A stretch of 64,000 bases of DNA. Source: Anaerolineae bacterium. GTDB lineage: Bacteria > Chloroflexota > Anaerolineae > Promineifilales > Promineifilaceae. Position numbers and translations under genes: made by a program. Shown piece by piece: positions 7,075-63,938 of this stretch. Positions within the stretch are counted from its first letter, which is position 1; each line of letters starts with the position of its first letter. The stretch spans positions 62,001-126,000 of the forward strand of contig JAHDWK010000003.1 of assembly GCA_023382655.1 (NCBI GenBank), in the 5' to 3' direction. A model generated the notes under the pieces. That model saw only the letters and a program-made list of their open reading frames with translations. It was not told the DNA's origin and did not search any database.

Positions 7075-8520
7075 CTATACCTGGCTACTCTTAACCAATT
7101 GACGAAAATATTGCCGATCTTCTCTCGGAATGACACCTAGTAACCAGATAACCACAAGATAAACAACCATACTCACTGCTCCGGCCCAGAAAAAGGAAAC
7201 GGTTTTTAAGTTCCATAAAACCACAATCATTACCGATGAAGCCACAAGAGGGCGCCATAACAGTGGCAAAATACCATCGGTAAGCAAATTGCGTTGTACA
7301 TAGATGTACATCATTGCAAAAAAAGCAAACGATGTCACTGTTCGCCCTAAAGCCGCACCAACGATACCATAACGCGGGATCAACCAGATGTTCAATGCCA
7401 AATTGATCGTCATGCTTAATCCGGTAATCCAACCCGCCTGCGATTGCCGGTTTGCAACCAGGGCTAGCCGCGCATTTGGTACCGTCAAGAAGGCAAAAAT
7501 GACGGTCCAAATCATTACCTGGAGCGCCGATATGGCTGGTTGAAATGCTTCTCCAAATAGCAGCATGATAAGCCAAGGCGCCATCACCATAACCGAGATA
7601 CAAACAGGAAATACGGCAGCTAATATATATCGGTTGGTACGATGGTAAAGTAGCGCCAGTTTTTGAGAATCTTCGTGATAATAGCGAGCCATTAAAGGGT
7701 AGATCGCCGTTCTAAACGCTGCGGGCATCATCAAAAAGCCCAATACAAAAATCTGGGCAGCGCCATAATAACCCAGACTGGTTTCATCCAGGTAAAAGGA
7801 AATTATCAAAGCATCCAGTTGAAAATCCATGGCAGTAAAAAAACTGATTAGGATGAACCCTGGCGCCAGGCGCAGTTGGTGGCGCATAAACAAAAAACTC
7901 AGACGTGTAGAAAGCAAATTGGTTCGACGTAATAACTGAATTAAGGAGGGGATAAGAACAACAGCACCAATGACGCCACCAAAGACCATAATCCAGGCTA
8001 AGCCAAGTGCATCTCCTCCTCGAATTAGAACCCAATATCCAGCCAGTAGTTTAAAAATACCATTGATAATAGCTGCTAAAGAGGGCATTAGCAGTTTTTC
8101 ATGCGCGGCAAAGAGCGCCTGAAACATCATAAAAATTGCTTCAGGGAATATAGCCAGCGATAAAACAGCAATGACCATTTTGGTCGTTTCTGTGTAAGGC
8201 AATGCAGTTTTAAGAAGCAGTATTAATAACCCATAGGTAAGCAAAGCCAATATCAAACGCAGGACAAGATAATTTGAAAGGTAATGGCCGCTTTCTTGGC
8301 GGCGTGGGGCAAGCTCCCGAACCAATAGTTCATGTAGCCCCCAACCAGACAGGGCCAACATAATCGTGAAGTAAGTGATCCCCAGGTTATACGTGCCCGC
8401 TACGGCCGGCCCTAACAAGCGCCCGATGAAGATAAATAACACCGTGTTACTTGCCTTGACAAAGACACTACTGATGTAGGTGAGCGCGGTATTACTGAGT
8501 AAACGTTGTGCTGTGTTCAT
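7075..8520 (-). CDS. Polysaccharide flippase (Wzx/MATE-like, MOP superfamily)
   Basis: A 481-residue multi-span membrane protein with about 12-14 hydrophobic segments, a typical oligosaccharide-lipid flippase. It begins MNTAQRLLSNTALTYISSVF, matching the usual N-terminal amphipathic helix of the family, and this is why I prefer the ATG at 8520 to an upstream one at 8640 that would overlap the preceding gene by about 150 bases. With the chosen start the overlap with the methyltransferase gene is 29 bases, implying coupled translation. It probably moves lipid-linked glycans built by the neighbouring GT2 and GT39 enzymes across the membrane. The local base composition is visibly AT-richer than elsewhere in the window. 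Confidence 0.85.
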   Translation of the reverse strand: MNTAQRLLSNTALTYISSVFVKASNTVLFIFIGRLLGPAVAGTYNLGITYFTIMLALSGWGLHELLVRELAPRRQESGHYLSNYLVLRLILALLTYGLLILLLKTALPYTETTKMVIAVLSLAIFPEAIFMMFQALFAAHEKLLMPSLAAIINGIFKLLAGYWVLIRGGDALGLAWIMVFGGVIGAVVLIPSLIQLLRRTNLLSTRLSFLFMRHQLRLAPGFILISFFTAMDFQLDALIISFYLDETSLGYYGAAQIFVLGFLMMPAAFRTAIYPLMARYYHEDSQKLALLYHRTNRYILAAVFPVCISVMVMAPWLIMLLFGEAFQPAISALQVMIWTVIFAFLTVPNARLALVANRQSQAGWITGLSMTINLALNIWLIPRYGIVGAALGRTVTSFAFFAMMYIYVQRNLLTDGILPLLWRPLVASSVMIVVLWNLKTVSFFWAGAVSMVVYLVVIWLLGVIPREDRQYFRQLVKSSQV

Positions 8521-9265
8521 CTGAAGATAATTTTTCGGCGATGCAAACCCAACCCATTGTATGATCCTTTGTTTTATCCAGGCGATCCAGGTAGAAAAAA
8601 ATGAGTGGTATGCACAAAAAGAAAACGAATTGTGTGACAAGTTTGAACGGCATCTGAACTAATTGCCAGAATAATGTGTTAGGTTTGGGAAAAAGCCAGT
8701 AGTGGAATAATTGTAAATTGAAAGAAAGAAACCAAAAATACCCCCCCATAGGCCGTATCTCAATGACACGCATTTTGCTGTTTTCAAGCAGATATTGAAA
8801 CCCAAACGATGTGTAACGAAAATAATCATGGGGCTTCTGGTGTTGGTGCCAGGCCATAGGAGCAGATAAATACAAACGGCCGTGTGGCTTTAGCACACGG
8901 CCTATCTCATTGATTACCCGCATTGGCTCATTGACATGCTCCAGGGTTTGAATACAAACAGCCGCATCCATACTTTCATCAGCAAAGGGCAAATAACATA
9001 AATCCCCTAAAGCATCCAGATTTGTATAATTCCAGGTGTTATCTCCTACCGCCAGATCAAAACCAATATAATTTGTATGCGCAAAGTAGTGCCTATATTG
9101 GCCTTCACCCGCGCCGGCATCCAACACCAGAGCGCCCTTAGGGATTTGTGCCTGGGCTTGTTCCAACAATCGGTAGCTTTCATAGCGGTTCACCTGAATG
9201 CGATCGCGCAGCCACTTGGGCATAGCCGCCAGCTGTTCGTCACGGCCAAAAGAAACTGGTTTCAT
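8492..9265 (-). CDS. Class I SAM-dependent methyltransferase
   Basis: A 257-residue protein with methyltransferase motif I VLDAGAGEGQYRHYF near residues 45-59, an acidic motif II (GFDLAVGD), the DAAVCIQTLEHV motif IV region near 105-116 and the LKPHGRLYLSAP post-motif. The C-terminal 60 residues are hydrophobic and may lie against the membrane. It resembles the methyltransferases of polysaccharide clusters that cap or decorate glycans or their lipid carriers; the acceptor is unknown. It lies between a GT2 gene (47 bases upstream) and the flippase, which it overlaps. Confidence 0.85.
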   Translation of the reverse strand: MKPVSFGRDEQLAAMPKWLRDRIQVNRYESYRLLEQAQAQIPKGALVLDAGAGEGQYRHYFAHTNYIGFDLAVGDNTWNYTNLDALGDLCYLPFADESMDAAVCIQTLEHVNEPMRVINEIGRVLKPHGRLYLSAPMAWHQHQKPHDYFRYTSFGFQYLLENSKMRVIEIRPMGGYFWFLSFNLQLFHYWLFPKPNTLFWQLVQMPFKLVTQFVFFLCIPLIFFYLDRLDKTKDHTMGWVCIAEKLSSDEHSTTFTQ

Positions 9266-24875: not shown

Positions 24876-24884
24876 CTCGCCTCC

Positions 24885-24952
24885 GTAATCCGTAGCCCGT
24901 TATCCGTAGTTCGTAATCCGTAATCCGTGATCCGATTACGGGTCACGCGCAA
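24885..24952. repeat. 7-base repeat array in the GH1/V4R divergent region
   Basis: About eight CCGTAAT-like units (CCGTAGC, CCGTTAT, CCGTAGT, CCGTGAT) then an inverted end (CCGATTA, CGGGTCA). It occupies most of the 147-base divergent intergenic region. Confidence 0.85.
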
Positions 24953-25808: not shown

Positions 25809-26675
25809 GTGACTGACGAAAAGAAAGGACACAAAATTTTCATTGTCGAAGACGATCTCGATCTGTCGGAGATGTTGAGCGCTTATTTCCGGGTACAGGG
25901 CTACGAGGTAGAAACTGCCTCGCATGGTGAAGATGCAGTGGAGGCGATCAGCCGGGAGATTCCCGATGTAGCCGTTCTGGACATTCGCTTGCCGGATATT
26001 GATGGGTACGAAGTGTGCCGTCGGCTGCGCCGTACCCGGCGTACCCAAAACCTGCCGGTCATCTTCCTCACCGAAAAGCGGGACCGGGATGATAAGTTGG
26101 CCGGTCTGGAATTGGGGGCAGTGGATTATATTACGAAGCCGTTTGATATTCAGGAACTGCGGCTGCGGGTGCGCAACGCCCTGCGGCGGGCGCACCTGAG
26201 TACGCTGCAAAACCCGGTAACGGGACTACCCGAAGGCGTCCTGGTGCGGGAACGGCTGGGACAGATGTTGAAGCAGCCGGAATGGGGCATTGTACTGGCG
26301 GGCATACACGGCCTGAGCCGCTTCCGGGATAAGTTTGGTTTTGTGGCCGCTGATGATGTGTCTCGTGCGGTCACGTTGATGATTTCAAATGCGGTGCAGG
26401 AAAGTGGGGCCGGTGAAGATTTCATCGGTCATACGGATTCGGGGGATTTTGTGATCATCACGGCCGTAGACCGCAGCCACAAACTCGCCGAACGCTGCCT
26501 GGTGCGCTTGCAACCTTCTATCCAATACTTCTACCCGGCACTGGAACGGCAGCGGTTACATGAACTGCCGGAGGCAGAGCGGTTGACGGTGCGGGTTTCT
26601 AGTTTAACGTCGCGGGAAAAACAGGTGGGGTCGCTAGAGGATTTGTTTGAGACGTTGGCAAATCGGCGGCTATAA
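25809..26675 (+). CDS. Response regulator with degenerate GGDEF domain
   Basis: A 288-residue protein. The receiver domain (about 8-125) has the acidic pair in IVEDDLD, the phospho-acceptor Asp in AVLDIRLPDIDGYE near residue 59, and the Lys of the YITKPFD loop near 110. A GGDEF-like domain follows from about 137 (NPVTGLPEG), but the signature loop reads DSGDF instead of GGDEF, so diguanylate cyclase activity is not expected; a regulatory nucleotide-binding or dimerisation role is more likely. GTG at 25809 is the start, with AAGGA upstream. The stop lies in the first unit of a 22-base tandem repeat. Confidence 0.87.
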   Translation: MTDEKKGHKIFIVEDDLDLSEMLSAYFRVQGYEVETASHGEDAVEAISREIPDVAVLDIRLPDIDGYEVCRRLRRTRRTQNLPVIFLTEKRDRDDKLAGLELGAVDYITKPFDIQELRLRVRNALRRAHLSTLQNPVTGLPEGVLVRERLGQMLKQPEWGIVLAGIHGLSRFRDKFGFVAADDVSRAVTLMISNAVQESGAGEDFIGHTDSGDFVIITAVDRSHKLAERCLVRLQPSIQYFYPALERQRLHELPEAERLTVRVSSLTSREKQVGSLEDLFETLANRRL

Positions 26676-26729
26676 AAGCCTTTTTCGGCGGCTATAAAAG
26701 CCTCTTTCGGCGGCTATAAGCCTGTTTTG
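26664..26729 (+). repeat. 22-base tandem repeat, about three copies
   Basis: Units start at 26664, 26686 and 26708 (CGGCGGCTATAAAAGCCT core). Each contains a small GGCTATAAAAGCC palindrome. The response-regulator stop codon is in the first unit. Confidence 0.8.
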
Positions 26730-26782
26730 GCGCTTTTTCTCCCTCTTGTTTTTGATAAAATCGCACACGGTTACTAGCCAGA

Positions 26783-26814
26783 CCCTAAGGGTTTCAGAAA
26801 ACCCTTAGGGTTTT
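26783..26814 (+). terminator. Intrinsic terminator abutting the fusion-gene start codon
   Basis: Arms CCCTAAGGGTTT (26783-26794) and AAACCCTTAGGG (26799-26810), loop of four, then TTTT. It ends only six bases before the ATG at 26821, leaving no room for a normal leader. Confidence 0.75.
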
Positions 26815-26820
26815 CCATTT

Positions 26821-29800
26821 ATGAATTTTCTCAAATCGTACCGGCTTGATTTTCTGATTATTTGTGGCTTTTTTGTGCTACCCCTGCTGCTATTTTGGGA
26901 TGTGACGGTGGGAGGCCAGACGATGTTGCCGGTGGATAATTTGTGGCAGTGGGCGCCGTGGGCGGCGAACACGGCCATAACCACCCCACCACAAAACCCC
27001 CTCATCACTGACCTGATTATCCAAAACTACGCCTGGAAGCAGTTCATCCGCGAAAATATCAGCACGCCTACCCAACTGTTGTGGAATCCCTATCTATTTG
27101 GCGGTGTGCCCTTTCTGGCGGCCGGGCAGCATGGCGCGTATTACCCGTTTAGCCTGCTGTTCCTCATCTTGCCGCTGAGTAAGGCGTATGGCTGGTATGC
27201 CGTCAGCCAGATATGGCTGGCGGGGGTGCTGATGTATGTATACGGCCGTACCGTTGGGATGCGGCGCAGTTCGGCGGCGTTGGCCGGGCTGGTTTACCAG
27301 GGCGGCGGGTATCTGGTTGTCAGCGCGGTTGTTTTCCCGATGATCAGCGGGGCCGTCGTATGGCTGCCGCTGCTGCTGGCCTGTATTGACAAAGTGATCA
27401 GCGGCTCTATCCGTCGCGCCCGCTCAACCTGGCTGTGGCTCATGCTCGGCGCGGCGGCGCTGGGCACACAAATCCCGGCGGGGCATATTGAGTTTACCAT
27501 TTACACACTGCTGGTCATGGCGGTGTATGCACTCTGGCAAGTAGTGGCTGGTGGTTGGTGGCTAGTAGCTGGTGGAACCGATTACCGATTACGGATTACC
27601 GATTACGGGTTACGGCCGTTGCTTTATCTGACCGGCATGGTGTTGTTAGGTCTCATGTTGGGGGCCATCCAACTCATTCCACTTTATGAACTGGGGCAGG
27701 CCAACTTCCGCGAGGCGGCGTCCAGTCTGGCCGAGGTGCGTGGGTATGCCTTTCCCATGCGGCAGGCGGTGACGCTGGCGCTGCCCAACTTTTTTGGCAA
27801 TCCGGCCCATCAGGAAGTGGTGGACGTGTTCAGCAGGCAGACGATCCCCATCACCCAAAATTATTACGGCCAACCCATTTCTACAACGGAATGGAGCACA
27901 AAGAATTATGTGGAAGGGGGCATTTACCTGGGTATCTTGCCGTTGTTCCTGGCAATTTTGGGGATTTACGGCGGGTTGCGGAAAGTAGTAAGCAGTAAGC
28001 AGTTAGCAGTGAGGGGTCGCCGCGGGTTGACCAGTTTTTATCTGTTGTTAGCTTTTTTTTCGCTGACGTTTATCTTTGGCACGCCGTTGTATGCGTTGTT
28101 GTATTATGGGCTGCCGTTTGTGAATCAGTTGCACACGCCGTTTCGTTGGGTGTTTCCGTTGTCGCTGGCGGTGGCGGTGCTGGCCGGATTCGGCGCAGAT
28201 TATCTGGCGGCGACGCGCAAGTGGCAGACGATTGAAGTGTGGAAAACATACCGCCAATCCTTCGACAAGGCTCAGAACAAGTCTCCGGTCGCTAATCTCC
28301 AATCTCAAAACGTTTTTGCCAGTGACAGCAGTGTGGTCTGGTGGCTACGGCCGTTTGTCCTTTGGGGCACACCGTCCATTATCACCGGGCTGGCGGGGGT
28401 GGCGTTTTGGGCGGGCACGGCCGTGTTAATCGGCCTATTTATTTCCAAAATACTCTATGCACAAATTGCGCCGTTGGTGGAGCGTACGTTTCTGGGGCTG
28501 GCGCTGGCGGCCTATGCGTTCCCCGATGCCCAAACCTTTTACAGCTATGAATACCGGCAGGTTTTTCTGTTCGGGTTGATGCTGGTGGGAACGGGGGCGA
28601 CCCTGCGCGTCAGCCGCTGCCCCATTTTTGCGGGACGATGGGGTGGACGATGGCCGTTGTGGTTATTCATGGCTGCCGGGCTGATTGTGCTGGACATCTG
28701 GGCGGCCAACCGGGGCTTTCACGCGGCCAACGACCCGGCGCTGCTGGTCCACAAGCCAGAACTGGTGGAATGGCTGGAAGCACAACCCGGTCTATGGCGG
28801 CTGACCAGCTTTGCCCCCCATGGCGACAAACCGTTTAACGCGAATTCCGGCTGGCTGTTTGATCTGCCCGATGTGCGTGGCTACGACTCGATTATCCCCA
28901 AACAGTACACCAACTATATGAGCGCCATTGAACCGCAGAACGAACTGCCGTTCAACCGGGTGCAACCTATCGTCAACTGGCAGTCGCTCAATTCTCCGCT
29001 GTTGGATGTATTGGGGGTGAAGTATGTGATCACGGCGGAGACAATCGAACTGCCCAAGTACCACCTTGCCTGGCAAGGCGAGGGACTGAACGTCTATGAG
29101 AATCTGGGCGTGGCTCCCCGCGCCTACACACTGCCACAAAAACAAACGGCCGTTGTCCCCGACCCCCTCGCCGCCCTGACTACGCAATACGACCCACGCC
29201 AATTCGTCGTCATCGCCGAGAACAACACCGGATTACCGATTACCAATTACCGATTACCGATTACCAATTACCAACCCGCCGACATCATCGCCAACAGCAA
29301 CATTGAGGTGACTGTCCAAACGGCCGTGACCAAACCCTCCTGGCTCATCCTCAATGACAGCTACTTTCCTGGCTGGAAAGCGTTTGTCAAACAGGTGGGG
29401 GCGGGTGAGGATGCCGAGCAGCAAGTAGACATAACGCTGGTGAACGGCAATTTTCGCGGCGTCCGGCTGGAGCCCGGGGAATGGGAGGTGCGCTTCCGGT
29501 ACAGCCCGCTCAGTTTCCAGCTAGGCGGGCTGGCGAGTGCGATGGCAGTGGTGATCTTGATGTTTGGCACGGCCGTGTGGGGTTGGCGCATCTTTTATAA
29601 TCCCAGCGGCGACCTCTCCAAAACGCACAGCATCGCCAAAAACAGCCTGGCCCCCATGGCCCTGAACCTGTTTAACAAGTTCATAGATTTTGTCTTTGCT
29701 ATGTTTTATCTGCGGGCACTGGGGCCGGCGGGGGCCGGCAGCTTCCAAACCGCCATCGTCACCGCCGGGATATTTGACATTGTGGCCAACTACGGCCTGG

Positions 29801-31092
29801 ACCTGCTTTTCATCCGCGATGTGTCCCATGACCGCCGCAAAACATCCAGCTACCTGCTGAACACCACCGTTTTGCGCATCGGGCTGGCCTTTTTTGCCGC
29901 CCTGCCCGTCTTTGTCCTCATCTTTGTCACTAATCGCCTGCCGGACAGCAACCCGCTCACGCCCGCCGAAATCCTGGCAACAATTTTGATCATGGCGGGC
30001 ATGGTCTTCTCTGGCATGAGCAAAGGCGTCACCGGCCTGTTTTACGTGCATGAAGAAGCAGAAACTCCGGCAGCGATGACCACCGCCACCACCATTATGA
30101 AGGTGGGTTTTGGCGTACTGGTGCTTCTGGCAGGTTACAGTTTTTTGGGGCTGGCGGCCGTATCCATTCTCACCAACGTCCTCACCCTGTTCATTCTCGT
30201 TGTCCTGGCTTTGCGGAAATATGACCTGCCCGGTCCCTGGCGGCTGGATTGGGGCTTGCAGCGGCGGATGCTGCGCCTGGGCTTCCCGCTCATGCTCATC
30301 CACCTGCTGCAAACCATTTTCATCTCCATTGACACCTACCTGCTGCGGGTGATGCTGCCCAACGGCCAGGAGGTGGCGGGCTGGTACAGCAGCGCCTACA
30401 AATGGTTTAATGCCTTGCAAATTATCCCCTCGTTCTTCACCCTGGCGCTGTTCCCCATCATCACCCGCGAAATTCAGCAATCGCCGGAGTCGGCGCGGCG
30501 CATGTATGGCATGGCGATCAAGATCATGTATCTGCTGGCACTGCCGGTCGCGGCCGTCACCTGGTATCTGGCTGTGCCCCTGGTGCGCATCGTTGGTGGG
30601 CCGGAGTTTTTGCCGCATGGAGCCATTGCCCTGCAAATCGTCATCTGGTCAATCCCCATTGGCTGGATGAACAGCGTCACCAATTATGTGCTGATCGGCC
30701 TGGGGCTGGAAGGCAAGCAGCCGCGGGCGTTCACAACCGGGGTGCTGTTTAACATCGTCACCAATCTCCTGTTCATCCCCCTGTTTACCTATGTGGCGGC
30801 GGGGGTGACGACGATTTTGTCGGAGGTGGTGCTGCTGCTGGTGTTTGCCTATTACCTGGGGCAGCGGATGCCGGGTGTGGGTTGGCGATTTATGGTGAAG
30901 CCGGGGGTGATCACGGCCGTGACCGTTCTCATCATGTATCTGGGCGGGCAAATTCATCTACTGGTGGGCGTATGGGGCATTTTGCTCTACCCCGCGGGGC
31001 TGCTGCTGCTGCGGGTGGTGGGGCCGGCCGAACGCAAAATCCTGGCCGACATCCTGCCTGCGCCCCTTGCCCGACGACTGCGGTTGGTTTAA
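26821..31092 (+). CDS. YfhO-type membrane glycosyltransferase fused to a Wzx-like flippase
   Basis: A 1423-residue membrane protein that joins two normally separate proteins. Residues about 1-925 are YfhO-like: many TM helices, an early loop with WQWAPWA and WNPYLFGGVPFLA, a large extracytoplasmic segment and a final beta domain (SYFPGWKAFV). Residues about 940-1423 are a polysaccharide flippase with the usual SIAKNSLAPMALNLFNKFIDF start and about 12-14 helices. Three 7-base repeat arrays are translated in frame: near residues 241-266, 388-399 and 803-819. No ribosome binding site is visible and a terminator lies just upstream, so translation may be leaderless. It probably modifies and exports a lipid-linked glycan in one polypeptide. 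The continuous reading frame through both halves is direct; the activities are inferred from family. Confidence 0.85.
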   Translation: MNFLKSYRLDFLIICGFFVLPLLLFWDVTVGGQTMLPVDNLWQWAPWAANTAITTPPQNPLITDLIIQNYAWKQFIRENISTPTQLLWNPYLFGGVPFLAAGQHGAYYPFSLLFLILPLSKAYGWYAVSQIWLAGVLMYVYGRTVGMRRSSAALAGLVYQGGGYLVVSAVVFPMISGAVVWLPLLLACIDKVISGSIRRARSTWLWLMLGAAALGTQIPAGHIEFTIYTLLVMAVYALWQVVAGGWWLVAGGTDYRLRITDYGLRPLLYLTGMVLLGLMLGAIQLIPLYELGQANFREAASSLAEVRGYAFPMRQAVTLALPNFFGNPAHQEVVDVFSRQTIPITQNYYGQPISTTEWSTKNYVEGGIYLGILPLFLAILGIYGGLRKVVSSKQLAVRGRRGLTSFYLLLAFFSLTFIFGTPLYALLYYGLPFVNQLHTPFRWVFPLSLAVAVLAGFGADYLAATRKWQTIEVWKTYRQSFDKAQNKSPVANLQSQNVFASDSSVVWWLRPFVLWGTPSIITGLAGVAFWAGTAVLIGLFISKILYAQIAPLVERTFLGLALAAYAFPDAQTFYSYEYRQVFLFGLMLVGTGATLRVSRCPIFAGRWGGRWPLWLFMAAGLIVLDIWAANRGFHAANDPALLVHKPELVEWLEAQPGLWRLTSFAPHGDKPFNANSGWLFDLPDVRGYDSIIPKQYTNYMSAIEPQNELPFNRVQPIVNWQSLNSPLLDVLGVKYVITAETIELPKYHLAWQGEGLNVYENLGVAPRAYTLPQKQTAVVPDPLAALTTQYDPRQFVVIAENNTGLPITNYRLPITNYQPADIIANSNIEVTVQTAVTKPSWLILNDSYFPGWKAFVKQVGAGEDAEQQVDITLVNGNFRGVRLEPGEWEVRFRYSPLSFQLGGLASAMAVVILMFGTAVWGWRIFYNPSGDLSKTHSIAKNSLAPMALNLFNKFIDFVFAMFYLRALGPAGAGSFQTAIVTAGIFDIVANYGLDLLFIRDVSHDRRKTSSYLLNTTVLRIGLAFFAALPVFVLIFVTNRLPDSNPLTPAEILATILIMAGMVFSGMSKGVTGLFYVHEEAETPAAMTTATTIMKVGFGVLVLLAGYSFLGLAAVSILTNVLTLFILVVLALRKYDLPGPWRLDWGLQRRMLRLGFPLMLIHLLQTIFISIDTYLLRVMLPNGQEVAGWYSSAYKWFNALQIIPSFFTLALFPIITREIQQSPESARRMYGMAIKIMYLLALPVAAVTWYLAVPLVRIVGGPEFLPHGAIALQIVIWSIPIGWMNSVTNYVLIGLGLEGKQPRAFTTGVLFNIVTNLLFIPLFTYVAAGVTTILSEVVLLLVFAYYLGQRMPGVGWRFMVKPGVITAVTVLIMYLGGQIHLLVGVWGILLYPAGLLLLRVVGPAERKILADILPAPLARRLRLV
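27541..27617 (+). repeat. Two adjacent in-frame 7-base arrays in the fusion gene
   Basis: GTGGCTG/GTGGTTG units (27543-27573) followed directly by CCGATTA/CGGATTA units (27576-27613). They are translated as part of an inter-helix loop with a repeating D-Y-x-L-x-I-T heptapeptide. Confidence 0.85.
27985..28016 (+). repeat. In-frame 7-base array in the fusion gene
   Basis: Four AGTAAGC-like units (AGTAAGC, AGTAAGC, AGTTAGC, AGTGAGG) in a predicted loop between membrane helices. Confidence 0.75.
29230..29276 (+). repeat. In-frame 7-base array in the fusion gene
   Basis: Six ATTACCG/ATTACCA units coding for a heptapeptide repeat (LPITNYR-like) at about residues 803-819, in the extracytoplasmic part of the YfhO half. 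Confidence 0.85.
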
Positions 31093-46968: not shown

Positions 46969-47011
46969 CTATTGTTTTCCCTTGAAGTCAATCAAAAATC
47001 AATCACCGCTC

Positions 47012-47076
47012 ACGCATCACCGATTACCGATTACGGATTACCGATTACCGATTACCGATTACCGATTACGGGTTAC
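47012..47076. repeat. 7-base repeat array between HSL and GT4 genes
   Basis: About eight CCGATTA units with single CGGATTA and CGGGTTA variants, in the 151-base divergent region. Confidence 0.88.
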
Positions 47077-47119: not shown

Positions 47120-48292
47120 GTGCGCGTGGCGATGATTGGGCCGTTTGGCCTGCACCCCAAACAGACGATGCGCAGCCGGGCGCTGCCGCTGGCCAAAGAA
47201 CTAACCCGACGCGGCCATCAGGTCTGCCTGTTCATGCCTCCCTGGCACACGCCGGCCGAGGCAGACAAAACGTGGCAGGAGGATGGCGTGACGCTGCGTT
47301 ATGTGCCCCTGGGCGGTGGTGTCCCCGGCATCACCTGGCGGCTGGTGCGCGAGGCGCTGGCCTGGCAGCCGGATGTGGTGCATGGTTTTAAGCCGAAGGC
47401 GTACAGCGGGCTGGCCTTGTGGTGGCTCTGGCAGTTTCACCGCCGCCGCCTGCGGCTGGTGTTGGATACGGATGATTGGGAGGGCTGGGGTGGCTGGAAT
47501 GAGCGCGAACCGTACACGGCCGTGCAAAAACATTTCTTCGCCTGGCAGGAACGGTGGGGTCTCACCCATTGCCACACCCTCACCGTCGCCAGCCGCGCCC
47601 TGCAAACCATCGCCCTGAGCCGGGGCGTGCCGCCGGAGCGGTTGGTGTATGTGCCCAATGGGCCGGGTATCAGTAATCGGTTATCGGTTATCGGTTATCG
47701 GTCAACTGATTACCGATTACCGATTACCGATTACCGTCCTACCCTCCTCCTCTACAGCCGTTTCTTTGAGTTTGAGGTCTCGCGGTTGGCGGCGGTTTTA
47801 CAGGGAGTGCATACGGCCGTGCCTCATTTGCGCATCCTATTGGTGGGGCAAAGCCTGTTTGACGCCGATGCTGCCCAATTTCAACAACTGCTGGCGGTAG
47901 GCGGGGTGTTGGAGGCGATTACAGATGCGGGTTGGGTAGAGCCGGACAGATTGCCGGAGGTGCTGGCACAGGCAGATGTGGGCATTTACCTGATGGATGA
48001 CACATTGCTGAACCGGACGAAGTGCCCGGTGAAACTGGGGGATATGCTGGCAGTGGGGCTGCCGGTGGTGGCGGAGGCGGTGGGACAGGTGGGGGAATAT
48101 GTGGTGCACGGCCGTACCGGTCTGCTACGGCCGTCTGGTGATGTGGCCGGTTTGGTGACCGACCTGGTCCACCTGCTGCAAAACCCGGCCGAGCGCCAAC
48201 AGTTGGCCGCCAATGCCAGCGCCCACATTCAGACCCATTTTTCCTGGGAAAAATTAGCCATCACGCTGGAAAGTGCTTACAGCACGTTGTAA
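47120..48292 (+). CDS. Glycosyltransferase family 4 with an in-frame 7-base repeat linker
   Basis: A 390-residue GT-B enzyme. The N-terminal domain shows VAMIGPFGLHPKQTM and DTDDWEGWGGW; after the hinge YVPNG the C-terminal domain has LLLYSRFFEFE, ILLVGQSLF, DAGWVEPDRLPEVLAQADVGIYLMDD and the donor-binding CPVKLGDMLAVGLPVVAEAVGQVGEYV. About 24 residues at the hinge (184-208) are encoded by the repeat array at 47672. The GTG at 47120 fits the usual MRVAMIGPFG start; ATG 47132 is an alternative, and starts upstream would cross the other array and overlap the HSL gene. Likely adds a hexose in surface polysaccharide synthesis. Confidence 0.88.
   Translation: MRVAMIGPFGLHPKQTMRSRALPLAKELTRRGHQVCLFMPPWHTPAEADKTWQEDGVTLRYVPLGGGVPGITWRLVREALAWQPDVVHGFKPKAYSGLALWWLWQFHRRRLRLVLDTDDWEGWGGWNEREPYTAVQKHFFAWQERWGLTHCHTLTVASRALQTIALSRGVPPERLVYVPNGPGISNRLSVIGYRSTDYRLPITDYRPTLLLYSRFFEFEVSRLAAVLQGVHTAVPHLRILLVGQSLFDADAAQFQQLLAVGGVLEAITDAGWVEPDRLPEVLAQADVGIYLMDDTLLNRTKCPVKLGDMLAVGLPVVAEAVGQVGEYVVHGRTGLLRPSGDVAGLVTDLVHLLQNPAERQQLAANASAHIQTHFSWEKLAITLESAYSTL
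47672..47740 (+). repeat. Inverted 7-base array inside the GT4 gene
   Basis: Four GGTTATC-type units and then four ATTACCG units face each other, so a hairpin could form. It codes for the interdomain hinge of the enzyme and keeps the frame. Confidence 0.87.
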
Positions 48293-57846: not shown

Positions 57847-60069
57847 GTGCCGGGAACAACAGTGCTTGCCCAACTGGCTGACTTGATCAGCGACCATTTT
57901 AGCGAGCAGGAACTGCGTGATCTATGCCTGGAATTGGGTGTGAATTATGAACACCTGAGCGGGGATAACACGCGGGCTAAGTCGCGGGAATTGGTACAGT
58001 GGGCGCAACGGCATGGCACGCTGCCCGCATTGCTGGAACAGGTGAAAACGCACCGTCCCCACCTGGCAGAGCAGATTGGCCACCTGGCAGTGAACCTGCC
58101 CCAACCGCCAACACCCCCGCGCCTGCACCACATTCCCTACCACCGCAACCCGCTGTTTACGGGGCGGGAGGAGTGGTTGGCGGCACTGCACGCGCAGTTG
58201 GGGCAGCGGGGCACAGTGGCCGTGACCCAGGCGGTGGCCGGGCTGGGCGGCATGGGCAAGACGCAGCTCGCGCTGGAATACTGCTACCGCCATGTGGCCG
58301 AGTATGACCTGATCTATTGGCTGCGGGCGGATGAGGCGGCGACGCTGGCGGGGGAGATGGCCGAACTGGCCTACCGGCTGGGGGCGGCCCCGCGCCATGT
58401 GACCGACCAGACGGCGCTGCGGGCAGCGGCGCTGGATTGGCTGCACGGTACGGCGCGGCGCTGGCTGCTGGTCTTTGACAATGTGGATTTGCTGGAACCG
58501 GCCGACCTGCAACCTTATTTACCCCGGCTGGGCAATGGCGGCAGCCTGATTACGTCGCGGAACCCGCGTTGGGAAGGGCTGGCGCGGACGGTGCGGCTGA
58601 AAGAACTGCCGCCGGAGGAGGCGGTGGCCTTTTTGCGGCAGGCAAAACCGGATGCACCGGAAGCGGAAGCGGCCCACCTGGCCCATTTGCTCGGTTATTT
58701 GCCGCTGGCGCTGGAACATGCGCGGGCGTTTGTGGCGGCAACGGGCTGTACGCTGGCGGAGTATGCCCACTATTTGGAGACGGCGCGGCGGGAACTGTGG
58801 GCGGGGGTGGACGCGCCGGTGGCGTATGACCGGCGGACGATTACGACGACGTGGGAAGTGGCCTTTGCGCGGGCGCGGCAGGTGCAAGGAGCGGCGGCGC
58901 TGCTGAATTTGTGCTGTTTTTTAGACCCCGAAGCCATTCCCCTGGCGCTGCTGCGGCGGGCGGCGGAGACGCCAGGCTTTTTGGAAAAGCCTGGCCCCCT
59001 GGCGCTGGAGGCGGCATTGAGGGAACTGGGGCGGTATTCATTGGTGCAGCGGGAAGGGGAGGGGGTGCGGCTGCACCGGCTGGTGCAGATGGTGGCCCGC
59101 GACCAGATGCCGCCGGAAACAGCCCAAAACACGGTGGCGGCGGCCGTAGAACTGCTGGCGGCAGCCTGGCCGTATGACCAACAGGACATGAACACCTGGC
59201 CCGCCAGCGCCGACCTGCTGCCGCACCTGCTGGCGGCCGCGGCGGCGGGGGAACGGGCGGAGTCGATACCTCACCGGACAGGGTATTTATGGAATCAGGC
59301 CGGTTTTTATCTGCATCACCGCGCTGTTTATACTCAGGCGGGGGATTGTTACCGCCGCGCCCTGGCGATTGATGAAAAAGCACTTGGCCCCGACCATCCG
59401 ACCGTAGCCACTCGCCTCAACAATCTGGGGATGCTGCTGAAAGATGAGGGGGATTTGGCCGGGGCACGGCCGTACCTGGAACGCGCCCTGGCGATTGATG
59501 AAAAAGCACTTGGCCCTGACCATCCCGAAGTAGCGATTCGCCTTAACAATCTGGGGATGCTGCTGCAAGCGGAGGGGGATTTGACCGGGGCACGGCCGTA
59601 CCTGGAACGCGCCCTGGCGATTGATGAAAAAGCACTTGGCCCTGACCATCCCGAAGTAGCGATTCGCCTTAACAATCTGGGGATGCTGCTGCAAGCGGAG
59701 GGGGATTTGACCGGGGCACGGCCGTACCTGGAACGCGCTCTGGCGATTTGGGAAAAAGCGCTCGGTTCTGACCACCCCCAAGTAGCTATAGGCAGCAGCA
59801 ATCTGGGGACACTGATGCAAGATGAGGGGGATCTGGCCGGGGCACGGCCGTACCTGGAACGCGCCCTGGCAATTGATGAAAGAGCTTATGGCCCTGACCA
59901 TCCCGAAGTGGCGACAGACCTCAACAATCTGGGGATACTGATGCAAGATGAGGGGGATTTGGCCGGGGCACGTGTGCATCTGGAACGTGCCCTGGCGATT
60001 TGTGAGGCGAGGCTGGGGCCAGAACACCCCCACACGCGCACGACACGCCATAATCTGGCGAATTTATAG
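57847..60069 (+). CDS. STAND NTPase: effector-associated domain, NB-ARC, kinesin-light-chain-type TPRs
   Basis: A 740-residue NLR-like protein. Residues about 1-75 are a helical effector-associated-type adaptor (QELRDLCLELGVNYEHLSG ... KSRELVQWAQRHG). The NB-ARC ATPase follows: GREEW near 106-110, P-loop GLGGMGKTQ 132-140, Walker B LLVFDNVD 207-214, TSR sensor 236-238, GYLPLAL 283-289, and a winged-helix end with LHRLVQ near 420. TPR repeats of 42 residues run from about 500 to the end. Such proteins oligomerise on ligand binding and are often conflict or anti-phage systems; no effector enzyme domain is fused here, so a partner is expected to bind the adaptor. GTG 57847 is six bases after GGAGGA; an ATG at 57784 is a longer alternative. 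Confidence 0.85.
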   Translation: MPGTTVLAQLADLISDHFSEQELRDLCLELGVNYEHLSGDNTRAKSRELVQWAQRHGTLPALLEQVKTHRPHLAEQIGHLAVNLPQPPTPPRLHHIPYHRNPLFTGREEWLAALHAQLGQRGTVAVTQAVAGLGGMGKTQLALEYCYRHVAEYDLIYWLRADEAATLAGEMAELAYRLGAAPRHVTDQTALRAAALDWLHGTARRWLLVFDNVDLLEPADLQPYLPRLGNGGSLITSRNPRWEGLARTVRLKELPPEEAVAFLRQAKPDAPEAEAAHLAHLLGYLPLALEHARAFVAATGCTLAEYAHYLETARRELWAGVDAPVAYDRRTITTTWEVAFARARQVQGAAALLNLCCFLDPEAIPLALLRRAAETPGFLEKPGPLALEAALRELGRYSLVQREGEGVRLHRLVQMVARDQMPPETAQNTVAAAVELLAAAWPYDQQDMNTWPASADLLPHLLAAAAAGERAESIPHRTGYLWNQAGFYLHHRAVYTQAGDCYRRALAIDEKALGPDHPTVATRLNNLGMLLKDEGDLAGARPYLERALAIDEKALGPDHPEVAIRLNNLGMLLQAEGDLTGARPYLERALAIDEKALGPDHPEVAIRLNNLGMLLQAEGDLTGARPYLERALAIWEKALGSDHPQVAIGSSNLGTLMQDEGDLAGARPYLERALAIDERAYGPDHPEVATDLNNLGILMQDEGDLAGARVHLERALAICEARLGPEHPHTRTTRHNLANL
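59356..60060 (+). repeat. 126-base near-identical TPR-coding repeats, six copies
   Basis: Units begin at 59356, 59482, 59608, 59734, 59860 and 59986. The second and third (59482-59607, 59608-59733) are identical by eye over 126 bases. Four copies contain ACGGCCGT. Confidence 0.9.
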
Positions 60070-63886: not shown

Positions 63887-63938
63887 TCCGTTATCGGTAA
63901 TCGGTTCACGGATTACGGCTCACGGGTTACGGTTCACC
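63886..63938. repeat. 7-base array between feoB and feoC-like gene
   Basis: Units TAATCCG, TTATCGG, TAATCGG, TTCACGG, ATTACGG, CTCACGG, GTTACGG, TTCACC fill the whole spacer up to the next ATG. Confidence 0.87.

Follow-up and report, generated by a model that had tools for sequence, protein, structure and literature searches.

We detected in the genome of an Anaerolineae bacterium a gene in which a predicted YfhO-type GT-C glycosyltransferase is joined, in one frame, to a predicted flippase of the MOP/Wzx type. The fusion is conserved in many Chloroflexota bacteria, and across many families it shows strong linkage to a gene resembling polyprenyl-phosphate-sugar synthases. It lies in a stretch of 64,000 nucleotides that was analysed as a whole (the window; C3:62001-126000 of a 7.70-Mb genome in 64 contigs), and its features are listed in Table 1.

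Table 1. Features of the fusion gene, with positions counted from the first nucleotide of the window.
Feature	Position	Strand	Basis or remark
Fusion gene, predicted YfhO-type GT-C glycosyltransferase joined to MOP/Wzx-type flippase	26821..31092	+	1423 aa; single frame, Pfam, relatives
Predicted GT-C (YfhO) half, residues 1-925, including C-terminal extracellular beta domain and last TM helix	26821..29595	+	PF09586, AF2 model, folds
Asp39, candidate acidic residue, first extracellular loop (predicted)	26935..26937	+	Acidic in 75/75 rows with a letter
Asp64, candidate catalytic residue, first extracellular loop (predicted)	27010..27012	+	Asp in 75/75 rows
In-frame heptamer array ACCGATT/GATTACG	27577..27615	+	7-bp units, Tandem Repeats Finder; variable loop
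Weaker third array, AGTAAGCAGT-like	about 27986-28010		Seen by eye; missing from Tandem Repeats Finder list
Extracellular beta-rich domain (predicted), residues 731-896 of GT-C half	29011..29508	+	Strands in AF2 model
In-frame heptamer array GATTACC	29231..29272	+	7-bp units, Tandem Repeats Finder; variable loop
Last TM helix of GT-C half, residues 897-925 (predicted)	29509..29595	+	Model helix; recognisable remnant in L061, L062
Short linker, residues 926-939, about 14 residues, predicted cytoplasmic	29596..29637	+	Near-constant length in 78 aligned proteins
Predicted flippase half, residues 940-1423, MOP superfamily, Polysacc_synt/Wzx type	29638..31089	+	PF01943, MurJ/WzxE fold, basic residues

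Integrity of the fusion gene

The reading frame starts at an ATG and meets no interrupting stop. The original prediction of one uninterrupted frame of 1423 residues joining a YfhO-like half to a full Wzx-like flippase was borne out by the ORF and by Pfam, where a scan of the full length together with one of the N-terminal half alone placed both domains (PF01943 and PF09586) over their curated cut-offs. That prediction had also allowed for a frameshift or assembly join near positions 29590-29640, or for relatives with two separate genes and a stop between them, and neither was found. The same single frame recurs in 77 of the 80 named relatives, and the other three (L116, L139, and L162) run off contig ends. 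The linker region (positions 922-942) is near-constant, with 20-25 residues in all 78 aligned proteins. Measured against three close relatives, dN/dS is 0.12-0.13 overall and 0.04-0.13 across the junction, which is under purifying selection like the rest of the protein. We reject both a frameshift and an assembly join as explanations of the junction.

A separate internal start for the flippase is not supported by the alignment of relatives. Some in-frame ATG is found between residues 905 and 948 in 74 of 77 relatives, but the linker (928-945) has no conserved Met column, while Met946 is Met in only 37 of 78 proteins and sits inside a flippase helix. Two genomes whose rows were flagged with an internal stop (G314 and G069) each proved to have one frame once the DNA was read (L191 and L192). 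An apparent triple fusion of synthase, transferase, and flippase (L127, 1588 aa) was rejected, as a run of N marking a scaffold gap joins two genes there.

The full-length fusion is present in a single copy in the genome of the window, and the remaining matches are partial, being separate YfhO-like frames or separate flippases. A 1412-aa frame on contig C35 of the same genome (L190 1749-5987, minus strand) was considered as a second fusion and set aside; its N-terminal part is YfhO-like, and by eye the part that follows resembles a second membrane glycosyltransferase, not a flippase. Elsewhere in the window, the minus strand has a separate flippase-like frame (7105-8598; C3:69105-70598; 527 aa) with 23% identity to the flippase half.

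Occurrence among Chloroflexota

Matches at E <= 1e-20 were found for 58 of 59 relatives, many as single frames of 1300-1600 residues. Counts of named loci refer to the best 80 of 479 relatives kept from the genome collection. Among these best 80, the titles include Ardenticatenaceae, Ardenticatenales, Promineifilum, Anaerolineales, Thermoflexus, Aggregatilineales, and other Chloroflexota; 79 name a Chloroflexota group or an Anaerolineae, Thermoflexia, or Ardenticatenia taxon, and the remaining one (L149) is titled simply uncultured bacterium. In an even sample of 120 genomes of the same class, 107 had a match at E <= 1e-60 (80/86 among the good-quality genomes). An even sample of 400 genomes of the phylum yielded 116 with a match at E <= 1e-40. 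Counted by hand from the rows listed, genomes with both halves in one frame number about 42 of the 400, 20 of them in the same class and 22 in other classes; in many others the only form is a stand-alone flippase, about 480-620 residues long. Plasmid records gave six matches out of 72,556, all to the flippase half only and at less than 30% identity.

The glycosyltransferase half

PF09586 (YfhO) scored 46.1 bits against a cut-off of 28.5 when the N-terminal half was scanned alone, was unlisted at E <= 1 in the full-length scan, and matched the N-terminal halves of 52 of 54 relatives at E <= 0.1. The AF2 model of this half, built with 54 sequences, has a mean pLDDT of 91.9. Foldseek ranked AftD first (E 1.1e-6) and then ArnT (6.4e-4), and VIA, a second aligner, returned STT3 (Z 21.5; 4.4 A over 452 residues), AftD (Z 20.7; 5.4 A over 591 residues), ArnT (Z 15.9), and Pmt4 (Z 15.7). 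Among PDB sequences, only chance-level rows were returned. By profile and model, this half is a predicted YfhO-family glycosyltransferase with a GT-C fold.

YfhO-family proteins are described, in the accessible part of PMC8035078, as having acidic DxD or modified DxD residues in an extracellular loop. In the present protein, Asp39 and Asp64 form no DxD motif, and their position outside the membrane is a prediction; the GT-C fold and their conservation make both candidates for a role in catalysis. Acidic residues at 39, 64, 224, 290, 365, 625, 689, and 866 and basic residues at 297, 314, 442, 660, and 767 are kept in all rows with letters. Residues 1-730 are under strong purifying selection (dN/dS 0.12-0.14). 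The beta-rich domain seen in the model may bind the acceptor; residues 766-895 have weak matches (Z 5.6) to domains of carbohydrate-active enzymes, and the AftD match continues through the domain, spanning residues 9-920.

The linker and the flippase half

PF01943 (Polysacc_synt) matches residues 939-1216 with 81.6 bits against a cut-off of 28.2. The AF2 model of residues 560-1423 has a pLDDT of 87 and a pTM of 0.70, and its flippase part aligns with MurJ (6nc6; Z 30.1, 3.1 A over 443 residues) and WzxE (9g9n; Z 29.3, 3.0 A over 400). Sequence relatives of this half in the PDB were limited to chance-level rows. Family match and modelled structure together identify the C-terminal half as a predicted Polysacc_synt/Wzx flippase with a MOP fold. 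Its conserved basic residues are K940, K953, R965, R999, R1019, and R1216, and Lys or Arg is kept in all rows with letters at 940, 953, 965, 999, 1019, and 1234. The MurJ profile (PF03023) has no match at the fusion gene, and its search of the same genome gave three strong matches and one weak match elsewhere. Replacement of MurJ by the fusion was rejected, as the genome has three separate MurJ genes.

MOP flippases start at the cytoplasmic end, where the linker is predicted to meet the flippase half. In the model, the last helix of the GT-C half would return the chain to the cytoplasm, and there the Lys/Arg-rich linker (region 922-942, mean of 4.2 Lys/Arg vs 2.0 Asp/Glu) would meet the start of the flippase. 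The join would thus need no extra helix.

Repeat arrays

Three repeat arrays had been noticed in the gene; two are confirmed by Tandem Repeats Finder, the third was seen by eye only, and none is part of the conserved protein, since all fall at loops whose length varies among relatives. At the loop near residue 396, the site of the third array, two relatives carry an in-frame minisatellite with a unit of about GETGGNGGVSFEQGHARQQE (L111 7177-7438 and L043 6556-6877). The same heptamers recur elsewhere in the window, where further arrays of the GATTACC/GATTACG kind or of related 7- and 14-bp units were observed at 24882-24934, 47005-47076, 47664-47736, and 63902-63937. The window also contains a 126-bp tandem repeat of 5.1 copies (59356-60000) in coding-like sequence, with a RALAIDEKALGPDHPEVA-like motif that we take to be typical of TPR repeats.

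Gene context and the neighbouring GT2

A GT2 of about 250 residues recurs directly upstream in 12 of the 42 fusion loci taken with flanks (L050, L052, L053, L054, L056, L057, L084, L086, L089, L090, L093, and L095). Four further loci (L063, L079, L092, and L097) have members of the same cluster that by eye are different GT2s. The upstream GT2 belongs to PF00535, and the solved structure that comes closest to it is that of the Pyrococcus furiosus dolichol-P-mannose synthase (5mlz; E 9.2e-33), followed by undecaprenyl-P-Ara4FN transferase (6.4e-11). It reached none of the NCBIfam equivalog cut-offs and had sub-cut-off matches to polyprenyl- and dolichyl-phosphate sugar transferases only; its sugar is therefore not named.

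Among the 77 named fusions, a GT2 of dolichol-P-mannose-synthase (DPM) type is located at most 300 bp upstream, on the same strand, in 32 and about 1.2 kb upstream in four, and it is never on the opposite strand. Some pairs overlap by 4 bp. It is absent within 2 kb in 41, six of which have less than 1 kb of upstream DNA, leaving 35. In the class sample, 105 of 120 genomes have the GT2 at E <= 1e-55, and 93 hold both genes; the two are adjacent in at least 51 of the 93, in 23 families, a lower bound as 73 of the 93 were tabulated by hand. The other 14 of the 107 fusion-bearing genomes have no synthase match at that threshold.

In the genome of the window (G000), the best synthase relative (C1:286772-287470) lies on another contig, unlinked to the fusion, and adjoins other glycosyltransferase-like genes. 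In the family of the window, the fusion is usually preceded by genes for a V4R protein and a response regulator and followed by one for a PMT_2-type GT-C. A 752-aa frame on a further contig (G000:C8:63526-64578), comprising a GT2 part (35% identity to the synthase query) and then a GtrA-like part, is another joined donor-synthase and flippase-like arrangement.

A 15-pair hairpin was observed directly before the start codon of the fusion (window 26780-26813; -22.4 kcal/mol for 26771-26840). It is kept in L109 and L111; in L110, L113, and L119, T runs near the start follow different hairpin-like sequences. Possible roles of this hairpin are termination of the response-regulator operon upstream or a leader function. 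A 22-bp unit, TCGGCGGCTATAAAAGCCTCTT, is present in three copies that occupy the 3′ end of the response-regulator gene and the sequence beyond it (window 26663-26732).

History of the fusion

A tree of 62 flippase domains was built from 44 fusions and 18 stand-alone proteins and rooted at the midpoint; the two stand-alone rows from the genome of the window are poor, with long branches. Stand-alone flippases of other Chloroflexota nest among the fusions, and one family (f34) has both kinds. The tree needs at least seven changes between fusion and stand-alone labels, five of them forced by well-supported branches. As rooted, it would allow both a single gain followed by losses and several gains.

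Two proteins bear on this choice. L062 (6930-9584, 884 aa) has a YfhO part cut to about 400 residues (profile E 3.7e-21) followed by the flippase, and it is an apparent intermediate between fusion and stand-alone flippase. L061 is a stand-alone flippase that begins with a helix and linker resembling the end of the GT-C half. A profile of the last GT-C helix and linker recognises both (E 5.3e-7 for L061 and 4.1e-15 for L062) and gives 0.017 or worse on five other flippases. Ten of the 18 stand-alone proteins have a TM-like segment ahead of the flippase, in eight of them with unrecognisable sequence. In addition, a gene family that is leucyl aminopeptidase-like by eye (cluster 12) neighbours both stand-alone flippases (L063, L065, L066, and L068) and a fusion locus (L091). 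Because stand-alone proteins nest in the tree, L061 and L062 keep remnants of the transferase half, and the cluster 12 neighbour is shared, the evidence favours an old fusion that would have lost its transferase half several times. A split operon was rejected as the ancestor, as a YfhO-like gene accompanies the flippase on the stretch taken in only one of the 18 stand-alone loci (L063), at a distance of about 6 kb.

Proposed mechanism and alternatives

We consider it probable, with moderate confidence, that the synthase and the fused chain together supply, flip, and transfer a lipid-linked monosaccharide. By homology, a cytoplasmic GT2 of the dolichol-phosphate-mannose-synthase type would make a polyprenyl-monophosphate sugar, most likely mannose. 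The C-terminal Wzx/MOP half, as its fold suggests, would move the lipid-linked sugar from the inner to the outer leaflet. The N-terminal YfhO/GT-C half would then take the sugar from the lipid in an outward-facing active site (Asp39/Asp64 in the first extracellular loop) and, judging by fold and conservation, pass it to an envelope acceptor. Fusion would keep donor supply and transfer together. In the genome of the window, the synthase relative on the other contig (49% identity) would act in trans. The original prediction of a protein that both modifies and exports a lipid-linked glycan stands as far as the two-half fusion is concerned; the order of events is revised, with the flippase supplying a monosaccharide donor and the transferase decorating outside. 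This order is favoured because a DPM-like GT2 lies upstream in many relatives and because published multi-component systems, in the accessible part of PMC8035078, are of this kind.

Several observations stand against the proposed mechanism. The synthase is unlinked in the genome of the window, and none lies within 2 kb in 35 of the 77 loci. The 14 fusion-bearing class genomes with no synthase match weigh on the same side, as do the want of a sequence relative among solved structures for either half and the sub-cut-off NCBIfam scores of the GT2. Such systems usually rely on a GtrA-family flippase, and 27 of 30 relatives have proteins of that family, so another flippase could serve instead. In fold, STT3, which uses diphosphate-linked oligosaccharides, comes as near as AftD (Z 21.5 and 20.7), and on the modelled structure the GT-C fold does not separate users of monophosphate sugars from users of diphosphate glycans. 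We put forward only tentatively a narrower proposal, in which the C-terminal half is specialised in flipping polyprenyl-monophosphate mannose (or another monophosphate hexose) for the enzyme to which it is fused.

The flippase half might alternatively export, in the manner of Wzx, a lipid-linked oligosaccharide made by other glycosyltransferases, which the GT-C half would decorate outside. The C-terminal half does belong to the Polysacc_synt/Wzx family and is as close to WzxE as to MurJ, and YfhO-type GT-C halves are described as decorating polymers outside (PMC8035078, accessible part). However, the gene that recurs beside the fusion resembles a monosaccharide donor synthase, no recurring polysaccharide cluster was found near the fusion in the gene clusters of the 60 loci compared, and the flanks in the window are the V4R protein, the response regulator, and an unrelated gene on the opposite strand. 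We regard this alternative as unlikely. The top Z score of the STT3 subunit of oligosaccharyltransferase could potentially be explained by a GT-C half that acts like an oligosaccharyltransferase or ligase and hands a whole glycan, brought by the fused flippase, from polyprenyl diphosphate to protein or lipid. This seems quite improbable, as the monosaccharide transferase AftD is tied with STT3 over a longer alignment, AftD and ArnT lead the Foldseek ranking, the sequence places the half in the YfhO family, and the linked GT2 would by homology make monophosphate donors.

It is very improbable that the halves no longer form one machine, with the flippase serving several envelope glycosyltransferases and the GT-C half carried along as a dispensable passenger. 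The strong purifying selection on the GT-C half of the fusions and its invariant acidic residues speak against such a passenger, while the nesting of stand-alone flippases among fusions and the shortened GT-C half of L062 would be in keeping with it.

If the tentative proposal of a specialised monophosphate-sugar flippase is true, a MOP-type flippase would be linked, by genome evidence, to a step for which the ER protein is not known. The movers of dolichol-P-mannose and dolichol-P-glucose in the ER were described as unknown as of 2021 (PMC7809446, accessible part), and a 2025 review describes the Dol-P-Glc flippase as still unclear (PMC13247534, accessible part). The same proposal would make the arrangement ancestral in a phylum, the transferase half having been lost later. 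A conserved fusion with a synthase next door lets sequence alone point to a candidate substrate of a flippase, something seldom achievable for a promiscuous-looking family, and having the flippase and its user enzyme in one bacterial chain would permit a direct assay of both steps. It also opens a way into the little-known envelope chemistry of Anaerolineae.

Comparison with known systems

The original prediction knew of no described example of such a fusion, and none came to light in searches of PMC full text, judged by the titles and abstracts of the papers listed. The accessible parts of PMC8035078 and PMC7389260 mention no flippase/GT-C fusion. A review groups CsbB-GtcA-YfhO and GacI-GacK-GacL as multi-component transmembrane glycosylation systems, for which a Wzx-type flippase has already been proposed. 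Such systems comprise a GT-A donor synthase, a flippase of the GtrA or Wzx type (e.g., GacK), and a GT-C such as YfhO (PMC8035078). The flippase and the GT-C transferase are both present here in one protein, and the donor synthase is represented in relatives by the adjacent GT2 and, in the genome of the window, only by an unlinked relative. The flippase and GT-C are separate proteins in all rows of table 1 of PMC8035078, whereas here they share one frame.

CsbB-GtcA-YfhO of B. subtilis and S. aureus likewise has a GT-A-fold synthase, a flippase, and a YfhO-type GT-C, and its polyprenyl-monophosphate sugar donor and transfer outside are what we propose for the fusion (PMC8035078, PMC7389260; accessible parts). 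Its flippase is a small GtrA-family protein encoded by a separate gene, whereas the present one is a flippase of the 14-helix MOP class fused to the YfhO half, and the synthase here is a linked short GT2 of the dolichol-P-mannose-synthase type. GacI/GacJ-GacK-GacL of S. pyogenes is alike in combining a Wzx-type flippase and a GT-C for a monosaccharide donor, and differs in having separate proteins, a GT-C of the PMT-2 type instead of YfhO, and GlcNAc as its sugar (PMC8035078, accessible part).

Among solved structures, the mycobacterial arabinofuranosyltransferase AftD (6w98) shares with the N-terminal half the GT-C fold and, by prediction, carbohydrate-binding parts outside; it differs in having no flippase half, and the identity in the alignment is 13%. 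MurJ and WzxE share the MOP fold of the C-terminal half at 12-13% identity, and neither is fused to a glycosyltransferase. The fusion is real and conserved, and its novelty lies in the joining of flippase and GT-C transferase, together with a linked synthase, from parts known in separate-protein systems.
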